A program made the translations under genes and the position numbers. DNA of 33,745 nt from Candidatus Falkowbacteria bacterium RIFOXYD12_FULL_34_57 (GTDB taxonomy: Bacteria > Patescibacteriota > Patescibacteriia > Patescibacteriales > UBA12075), in NCBI GenBank assembly GCA_001780285.1, contig MFGN01000020.1:1-33745 (forward strand), given 5' to 3'. Below are positions 26,998 through 29,118 of the stretch, piece by piece (positions within the stretch are counted from its first letter, which is position 1; the number at the start of each line of letters is the position of its first letter). A model generated the notes under the pieces. That model was not told where the DNA came from and did not search any database. It saw only the letters and a list, made by a program, of their open reading frames with translations.

Positions 26998-27232
26998 TAT
27001 AATAAAAATTTGCATTTAATGGTTTTTAATTAATAAACTTTTTTCAAGAAAAGCCTTTCAGGCTTTTTGAAATCTCCGCCTGAAGCGGGGGCGTGGTGAA
27101 TTACAGAATATTTAATATTATTAATCACTTTTATCTTTTCAAATAGTAACAAATAAAAATTCCTATACGATAAAAAATTTATTTTTTTAAAAAAGTTTAA
27201 AAAGAGCCTTTTTATATACTAATATTAGACAC

Positions 27233-27263
27233 TTGACAAAAAATATTGGTATGGTATTATTAT
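27233..27263 (+). promoter_or_regulatory. Promoter of the ncRNA candidate
   Basis: A perfect TTGACA (27233-27238) is followed by overlapping TATTAT copies at 27255-27260 (16-bp spacer) and 27258-27263 (19-bp spacer). Transcription should start at about 27267, where the closing stem of the RNA begins. Confidence 0.65.
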
Positions 27264-27266
27264 TAT

Positions 27267-27496
27267 AAGATTGATAGTAGATAAGAAGTTTAGGGAAACG
27301 AGAATGGGTTGACGGATATAGTCTTAAACCTTTAAGGGTTTAGAACCATATCCATCAACTCTCTCTAAAAAACCCAACAAAAACAACAACCTTTCACACA
27401 AAAAACACACTTAACCAAAAAACAACCTCAAAACACCACACACAACAACAAACCAAACAAACTTCTTCATAAACACACTATCAATCTTTTTCTTTT
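27267..27496 (+). ncRNA. Candidate ~230-nt structured RNA with a G-free loop
   Basis: The first bases AAGATTGATAGT (27267-27278) pair perfectly with ACTATCAATCTT (27477-27488), which is followed by TTTTCTTTT like a terminator. Inside, AAGAAGTTT (27283-27291) pairs with AAACTTCTT (27459-27467). Next comes a long hairpin with TTGACGGATAT/ATATCCATCAA and TCTTAAACC/GGGTTTAGA. From about 27356 to 27496 no G occurs: the strand between the hairpin and the closing stems is made of A and C with few T. A second terminator hairpin lies at 27500-27525. There is no long frame. It fits none of the standard RNAs I know. Confidence 0.65.
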
Positions 27497-27499
27497 GCC

Positions 27500-27525
27500 A
27501 AATATCCCTTTTAAAAGAGATATTT
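27500..27525 (+). terminator. Terminator downstream of the ncRNA candidate
   Basis: AAATATC-c-CTTTT pairs with AAAAG-a-GATATTT with almost no loop beyond the A/T centre, followed by TTTATTTT. Confidence 0.6.
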
Positions 27526-27680
27526 TTTATTTTAAACACATAAAATAATTTGACGATTGTCTAATATTAGTATAAAATTAAAATACAAAATATATTTGTT
27601 TTCGTAACCATATTATGATTACAAATCTAAATAAAAAAATTAACTTATTTTAAATAAAAAACTTCGCACAGCCGCGCACG

Positions 27681-29084
27681 CACTAGTGTCGCGTTAAGCA
27701 ATATTTTGTCCATTAAAATATAACTAATAATAGAATAAATAAAGCACTTTTAGCTTGCGCACGATTTCAATTTTACATTTTTCATATTTACTAAAATTAG
27801 CAAAAAATACTTATAAAATATTTAATACTAATTTTAGCAAATATCATTTTTGTTGTGCTAGAATTATTTTAATTAATAATTAATTGAAATAATTTTATGC
27901 ATCAAGGAAAATATGTTTTTGCATAGATTATCGAATTTATTCCTCGTCATGAATTTGATAAATTTGTTAAACGGCATAATGGTAATAACCGTATTCGTAA
28001 TCTTGATTGCCGTGACCAGTTACTCGCAATGATGTTTGGACAGCTTACAAATTTGCGCAGTTTACGTGGAATCATCTTATGTTTAAATGCTCATTCCAAT
28101 CTATTATATCACCTCGGATTCAAAATCAATAATTTTACGTTATCGACTTTGGCACGTGCCAATGAGAATCGCGATTACAACATTTATCAGGATTTGGCGC
28201 GATTGTTAATTGTCGAGGCGCAAAAACTTTATAACAACGACAATGACTTCAGAATCGAGCTGGACGGAGCAGTTTACGCGCTTGACTCAACGTGATTGAA
28301 CTGTGTTTAGCAACATTCAAATGGGCATATTTCGAACTGAATAAATCCGCTGTGAAAATCCACACGCAACTGGATTTAAGGGGCAATATTCCTGCATTTT
28401 TTCATATTACCAAAGCCAAGGTACATGATATTAATTTCTTGGACATTCTTGAATTCGAGATAGGCGCGTTCTATGTTATGGATCGCGGCTATTTCGACTT
28501 CGAGAGACTGTGGAAGATTAATCAGGCGGAAGCGTACTTTGTTATCCGGGCTAAGAAAAGCATTTCCTATGAGCGGATGTATTCAAACGACGTAGATAAA
28601 ACAATCGGGCTACGCAGCGATCAGACAATCAAGCTAAAGCATTTTTATTCAAAAAAACATTATCCGGAAAAGCTAAGACGCATAAAGTACTATGATGCAG
28701 AAACAAAAAAATATTACGTCTATCTGACAAATAATTTTAAAGTGGACGCGAAGATTATCGCCGACCTTTACAAACAGAGATGGCAGATTGAATTGTTTTT
28801 TAAGTGGATCAAACAGCATCTAAGAATCGAGGTATTCTGGGGCTATTCGCAGAACGCGGTAAAGACACAAATCTGTATTGCGTTATGTACTTTTCTTTTA
28901 GTCGCTATCATGAAAAAGAAATTAGGCATTCAAAGAAATCTTTACGAAATTCTACAGATTTTGTCAGCATCCCAATTTGAGAAAACCCCGATAAACACAC
29001 TACTTTCTGAACTTAATCTACGGATTTTAGAAGACCAGGCTCAAAAACGCTTATTTTCATTGGATTTTTAACGCGACACTAGTG
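27681..29084 (+). mobile_element. IS4-family insertion sequence (1404 bp) with 9-bp target duplication
   Basis: The ends are perfect 17-bp inverted repeats, CACTAGTGTCGCGTTAA (27681-27697) and its complement (29068-29084). They are flanked by direct repeats CCGCGCACG at 27672-27680 and 29085-29093. The element holds one transposase gene, now broken, whose stop lies inside the right repeat. About 200 bp of leader with a hairpin-prone AT-rich stretch precede the gene. IS4-type elements usually make 9-12-bp duplications, which agrees. Confidence 0.92.
27897..29071 (+). pseudogene. IS4-family DDE transposase, inactivated by a stop and a frameshift
   Basis: The original frame starts at the ATG at 27897, but codon 10 is TAG (27924-27926) where CAG (Gln) would continue FAQIIEFIPRHEF. 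The frame then runs on to ALDST at about 28290, where one base appears to be missing; the next frame resumes with IELCLATFKWA. The DDE residues are the Asp in ALDST, the Asp in VMDRGYFDF and the Glu in the YREK motif (Y-KQ-R-WQI-E-LFFKWI-K). The N-terminus matches the DUF4372 domain of this transposase group. With two lesions it cannot make the full enzyme. Confidence 0.9.
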
Positions 29085-29118
29085 CCGCGCACGTTAGCTG
29101 AAATATTCCTTTTCTTTT

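Follow-up and report, generated by a model that had tools for sequence, protein, structure and literature searches.

What selects against G along one arm of an RNA? This sharp and testable question is raised by a locus in the window analysed here—a stretch of 33,745 nucleotides that is one contig of a 1.6-Mb Patescibacteria genome (labelled G000)—where a promoter is followed by a predicted rod-like RNA whose 3' arm contains no G at all. Here we describe the locus together with its relatives, a family of small non-coding RNAs (ncRNAs) of ultra-small Patescibacteria that seems not to have been described. Its hallmark is an arm, tens to hundreds of bases long, that remains nearly devoid of one nucleotide although its sequence drifts; among the RNA families known to us, none keeps an arm nearly free of G in this way. 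To our knowledge, the regulatory RNAs of the Candidate Phyla Radiation (CPR) are poorly characterized.

The RNA locus in the window

The features of the window copy are as follows, in window coordinates:

27219-27228, forward strand: palindromic element CTAATATTAG, directly 5' of the -35 box (from sequence; also in homologues)
27233-27260, forward strand: sigma-70 type promoter with extended -10 (TTGACA at 27233-27238, 16-nt spacer, TATTAT at 27255-27260)
27267-27278, forward strand: closing stem P1, 5' strand (from the fold; 12 perfect pairs with 27477-27488)
27280-27291, forward strand: second stem P2, 5' strand GATAAGAAGTTT, which contains GAAGTTT (from the fold)
27300-27366, forward strand: multi-part hairpin at the apex (P3/P4), in which a small bulge of 3 nt lies opposite U (from fold and covariation)
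27344-27496, forward strand: G-free 3' arm, 153 nt without G (from base count)
27374-27458, forward strand: unpaired A/C-rich platform within the G-free arm (fold energy 0)
27459-27470, forward strand: second stem P2, 3' strand AAACTTCTTCAT, AAACTTC (from the fold)
27477-27488, forward strand: closing stem P1, 3' strand (from fold and covariation)
27487-27530, forward strand: U-rich tract TTTTTCTTTTGCC, then a weak hairpin and a T run, the predicted end of the transcript
27542-27577, reverse strand: inverted partial copy of the promoter element (pairs with 27212-27247; 36 nt, 81%)

The TTGACA box reported by the initial annotation of this DNA is present, with TATTAT at the spacing given above; the promoter matches 11 of 12 consensus positions and carries a TG upstream of TATTAT, which makes it near-consensus. 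Both the -35 and the -10 boxes are kept in the homologue alignment. An element resembling (G)CTAATATTAG is likewise present in the order-level homologues of G002, G007, G100, and G058, with variants in G101 and G006. The start point had been placed at a 12-bp closing stem, and 12 perfect pairs do begin at 27267, the first base of that stem, where we infer that transcription of the window RNA starts. At the other end, a T-rich tract adjoins the closing stem and is followed by a further hairpin at about 27500-27525, in agreement with the T-runs and additional terminator noted before; a TTTTTCTTTTNCC-like tail is found again in many homologues.

The segment 27262-27540 folds with a z-score of -7.4, and none of 200 shuffles folds as well; the inner hairpin (27300-27366), already described as multi-part, reaches a z-score of -5.3 by itself. 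A second stem of 9 bp had been claimed: the stem exists, but the fold gives it 11 pairs and a bulge, and its 5' strand is found again in many homologues. The G-free strand also exists, but its limits had been drawn too narrowly—27356-27496 (about 140 nt) rather than the 153 nt listed above. The next-longest G-free run in the 33.7-kb window is 72 nt, and the longest in 1,000 shuffles of local intergenic DNA is 106 nt. The idea that this strand is kept open, unable to pair with itself, agrees with a minimum free energy of 0 and no predicted structure over its middle part (27374-27450).

Two other elements lie downstream. The inverted promoter copy could drive an antisense transcript. An insertion sequence (IS) element occupies 27680-29085 and has 18-bp perfect terminal inverted repeats (GCACTAGTGTCGCGTTAA); its two overlapping, transposase-like ORFs (28029-28295 and 28292-29071) lie in different frames and possibly represent a frameshifted or programmed-frameshift transposase. 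CGCGCAC occurs at both ends of the IS element, a possible target-site duplication.

Homologues and distribution

Covariance-model searches yielded about 28 credible homologous loci in about 25 genomes, all of the same class; none was found outside it. Within the family, blastn found three copies, all in one relative (G002). A first covariance model (R1), in whose training set the window row had its long loop excised, found five copies in G002 and homologues in G006, G007, G019, G058, G098, G100, and G101; a second model (R2), which spans the promoter, the 5' arm, and the apical hairpin, added further members spread across many families of the class. On 380 genomes from the whole phylum, R2 returned nothing beyond the window's own locus and one class member that was already known. 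Weak model matches were left uncounted (G165, G284b, G389, G376, and G011b, plus those at E of about 0.003-0.007), and the near self-complementarity of the hairpin explains why the same loci also gave antisense matches. The predicted RNAs are about 160-380 nt long.

At strong E-values, about 10 of the 111 genomes of the order carry the RNA, a prevalence that is a lower bound because the search filters were strict. The distribution is patchy, and G005—98% complete, from the same family as the window and the same genus as the carriers G006 and G007—gave no match; the RNA is therefore not essential to the lineage. A pattern scan of genome contigs produced six unrelated chance matches and two Falkowbacteria loci, which are the members from G101 and G011. 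Neither blastn searches of plasmid and phage collections nor a pattern search of viral contigs found any copies; the single viral-contig pattern match (L009) was set aside as chance, the rest of the promoter being absent, and three blast matches (L002, L005, and L006) were spurious, being low-complexity or coding.

Some genomes carry more than one copy. The five G002 copies retain everything from promoter through tail and have diverged flanks, and in G101 members lie adjacent to each other. Two full copies in G002 lie on the same strand, 1.2 kb apart, with a 211-aa ORF between them (L032, 6350-7799); in G230 and G284, a second similar hairpin and G-poor strand follow the RNA locus, a partial tandem duplication (L052, about 1250-1665, and L055).

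The flanking ORFs, inspected at 26 loci, differ from member to member—G355 and G361, which have one neighbour in common, are the sole exception—and, judged from their first residues, the neighbours are genes of many unrelated kinds. This lack of conserved neighbours makes action in trans probable; the RNA is not a cis-regulatory element.

Conservation of the fold and of the G-free arm

The initial annotation had named beforehand two signs by which the RNA could be recognized in relatives: compensatory changes in the long-range stem and persistence of the G-free strand. Both were found, across about 25 genomes. For the stem, each of the 12 P1 pairs shows at least one two-sided compensatory change among 20 members; 92% of P1 cells are paired, against a mean of 70% (maximum 79%) when whole 3' strands are dealt among species, in an alignment of the P1 strands made by hand that favours pairing somewhat. 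The apical helix behaves in the same way, with two-sided changes in 16 of 17 pairs. Of its cells, 94.5% are paired; the figure is 72.7% in shuffles and no higher than 53% once the strands are slid, with pairing already lost at a shift of one column. Two-sided changes fill 102 cells against 28.7 in shuffles, and 0 of 500 shuffles do as well. On inspection of the alignment, P3 has in many families the same kind of small internal loop, a YAU-like bulge opposite U.

The arms themselves differ sharply in composition. Beyond the apical strand, the 3' arms of 23 members contain 43 G in 2,236 nt (1.9%), whereas their 5' arms are 30% G and 8% C. Many of the few 3'-arm G come from short insertions local to G302, G315, and G101, members whose loops hold short hairpins and a few G, a point against the reading that we prefer below. 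The sequence and length of the 3' arm vary freely between members, and species do not share a loop sequence; the unpaired loop ranges from 32 nt (G217) to 267 nt (G019), and G019 has a 337-nt G-free run made of AACCAAAC-like repeats.

What is found, then, is a conserved secondary structure with compensatory changes, as expected of a structured ncRNA. Since the fold and the lack of G are both kept in distantly related species, we regard this as a real and unusual RNA; the earlier claim of a new structured ncRNA holds up, supported by the covariation and by the lack of any Rfam match.

DnaA boxes upstream of the promoter

Upstream of the -35 box, most members have the DnaA box TGTGGATAA, complementary to TTATCCACA, either perfect or with one mismatch—a box at a promoter-compatible position, as a member of a DnaA regulon would have. 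The 10-mer TGTGGATAAC is rare, with 2-15 occurrences per genome in 13 carriers, and such a site stands just upstream of the RNA in all 12 scanned carriers other than the window. From box to -35 box, the distances are 16, 25, 26, 36, 46-48, 58-59, 67-70, 78, 82, 85, and 93 bp, phased at about 10.5-11 bp, close to one turn of DNA. For this period, which was noticed prior to its test, the observed phasing was matched by 0 of 5,000 random sets, both with all 21 members and with a reduced set of 17; common descent inflates this signal somewhat, and relatives may have inherited part of their phasing. With the 15 perfect boxes only, p was 0.0016-0.0066; with perfect boxes minus near-duplicates, again 0 of 5,000 sets did so, or p was 0.0024 when the period was fixed at 10.5 bp.

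The protein that would bind these boxes is most likely DnaA, and the phased boxes hint at the cell state that calls up the RNA. The window copy and that of G019 have no DnaA box upstream of the RNA; the claim of regulation therefore rests on the relatives of the window copy. Given the IS element downstream, the inverted promoter copy, and the missing box, the window copy may be regulated differently.

DnaA boxes also occur elsewhere in these genomes. Copies precede a LexA-like gene in G217 and an NrdR-like gene in G101, both named tentatively from their first residues. In G100, three boxes fall within about 40 bp (L099, 2817-2860) and are followed by TAGCTAATGTTAG, which resembles the motif upstream of the RNA promoters; this region is a candidate replication origin. 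DnaA-box-like sequences at a CPR origin have been reported for Peribacteria (PMC4736985).

Proposed function and alternative explanations

Our preferred reading, held tentatively and at a little short of an even chance, is a trans-acting RNA whose A/C loop binds, and probably titrates, a single-strand RNA-binding protein and whose expression is set by DnaA in most members. Comparison among members supplies its groundwork—the fold and the asymmetry of its strands, the promoter with its phased box, and the independence from neighbouring genes—and to this we add what we infer, namely transcription, protein binding by the loop, titration, and DnaA as the protein at the box. Transcription would start at the first base of P1 and end in the U-rich tract 3' of P1. 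The C-poor 5' arm and the G-free 3' arm would then form a rod of P1, P2, P3 with its recurrent small internal loop, and an apical P4; the long stretch of 3' arm between P3 and P2, unable to pair with itself, would be held out as an A/C-rich single-stranded loop. This loop would be the working part: a protein or complex that binds single-stranded RNA, but is neither Rho nor Hfq, would attach to it and probably be titrated by it. Expression would be set in most members by a protein at the upstream box, most probably DnaA, bound always on the same side of the promoter helix, and such control would couple the level of the RNA to the state of replication or growth. Of the initial proposal, a binding platform held open still fits best; Rho or Hfq as its partner is not supported.

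The strongest rival, unlikely in our estimate but a serious contender, holds that the G-free strand is a passive linker selected against misfolding with the structured parts at its two ends, the helices and the P3 internal loop being the working parts. It fits well with helices and a small bulge that are conserved beside a loop that is not, in sequence or in length (about 35 to 270 nt); however, a neutral linker need not be C-rich and has no need to reach 270 nt, as it does in G019. The 19 loops other than that of G019 consist of 50% A, 38% C, 12% U, and 0.6% G, against 33% A, 18% C, 16% G, and 33% T in the window, where U is as common as A. Compared with the genome, the loops are thus poor in U and rich in C, which suggests a preference for A and C, not merely a bias against G. 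The word CAACAA is found in 18 of the 20 loops where shuffles predict 9, a modest excess that could stem from drift of an A/C spacer. A linker accounts for the drift of the loop, but not for its C enrichment, U depletion, or CAACAA excess.

Returning to a loop that binds something, the partner could instead be RNA polymerase holoenzyme, with the rod and its open centre mimicking an open promoter in the manner of 6S RNA. The closing stem, interrupted rod, apical stem, size, and own promoter all suit this role, and the role seems to be vacant—none of the 19 whole genomes tested has a match to Rfam 6S (RF00013) at E up to 0.1. We nevertheless consider it improbable: the window locus itself gives no RF00013 match at E up to 10, and a long G-free strand lies outside the 6S consensus, which has none that we know of. 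Comparably improbable is a base-pairing regulator, whose C-rich strand would pair with G-rich mRNA sites such as Shine-Dalgarno sequences. An open C-rich strand would make a good antisense surface, but anti-Shine-Dalgarno words are not enriched in the loops (CCTCC 2 against 5.5 expected, CTCC 10 against 14), the loop sequence drifts between species, and Hfq (TIGR02383) is absent from 19 carriers, with control genomes positive.

That the locus is a small mobile element of the MITE type strikes us as very improbable, even though an inverted repeat bounds it, G002 holds five copies, and the window has an IS element close downstream of it. The 36-nt repeat was seen at the window copy only, and not downstream of the homologues inspected; the G002 copies share promoter to tail without terminal repeats, so that no terminal inverted repeats are common to the copies; pairing is compensatory at the RNA level; and the viral, plasmid, and phage collections searched hold no copies. 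Least credible of all, to the point of being nearly dismissed, is the earlier suggestion of a decoy for Rho or for the RNA chaperone Hfq—Rho prefers C-rich, G-poor unstructured RNA, and A-rich triplets with a U tail suit Hfq, but Hfq is missing as stated above and no Rho (TIGR00767) scored above cut-off in 12 genomes, 9 of them carriers (no match exceeds 53 bits, the cut-off being 509), which leaves a Rho decoy unsupported. The weak Rho-model matches, found in 11 of the 12 genomes, are ORFs of about 460-530 aa, mostly paired about 3 kb apart, that look like F1-ATPase alpha and beta; the window's genome gave no match of any strength, and it may lack F1-ATPase or have it in an assembly gap.

The trans-acting, protein-binding RNA that we favour can be extended further: it would be a global regulatory RNA of one Patescibacteria class, DnaA-activated, with a G-free strand on a rod, in genomes without detectable 6S, Hfq, or Rho. 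This wider claim is possible, if doubtful. Searches of the tested carriers turned up none of these three, which are common players in bacterial RNA regulation. If the claim is true, the RNA would display an unstructured binding surface in a novel manner and would link the replication state to RNA-based control in genome-reduced, probably symbiotic bacteria.

Comparison with known RNAs

We rate the architecture as new, in the sense that the class is not in Rfam 15 and that a search of the open-licence literature found no description of it. Tested at the gathering thresholds, at E up to 10, and on ten homologue loci, Rfam returned only tRNAs and no match for the RNA itself, in line with the original impression that the RNA does not resemble 6S, tmRNA, SRP, or RNase P RNA. 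A match to MIR842 (E 0.003) was rejected, as it lies on the opposite strand of the hairpin and far below its cut-off. One paper about a cell-cycle ncRNA refers to a DnaA box as well (PMC8959179). The cell-cycle ncRNA CcnA of Caulobacter is a possible parallel in regulation only.

Three known systems come closer in form or in proposed function. Rut sites and other Rho-binding RNAs are, like the G-free strand, long, C-rich, G-poor, and unstructured; in contrast to them, the strand described here sits in a closed, folded RNA, in tested genomes that have no Rho. The protein-titrating small RNAs CsrB and RsmZ offer a functional likeness, in that single-stranded sites are proposed to be shown to an RNA-binding protein. 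However, CsrA recognizes GGA in loops, and repeated exposed GGA is not what these RNAs display—the platform has no G in the window strand and 1.9% G in the 23 members. With 6S RNA, finally, the new RNA shares a stand-alone gene with its own promoter, paired 5' and 3' ends, and an interrupted rod of about 200 nt; it differs in giving no profile match and in having a central opening that is strongly one-sided, G-free, and about 35-270 nt long.
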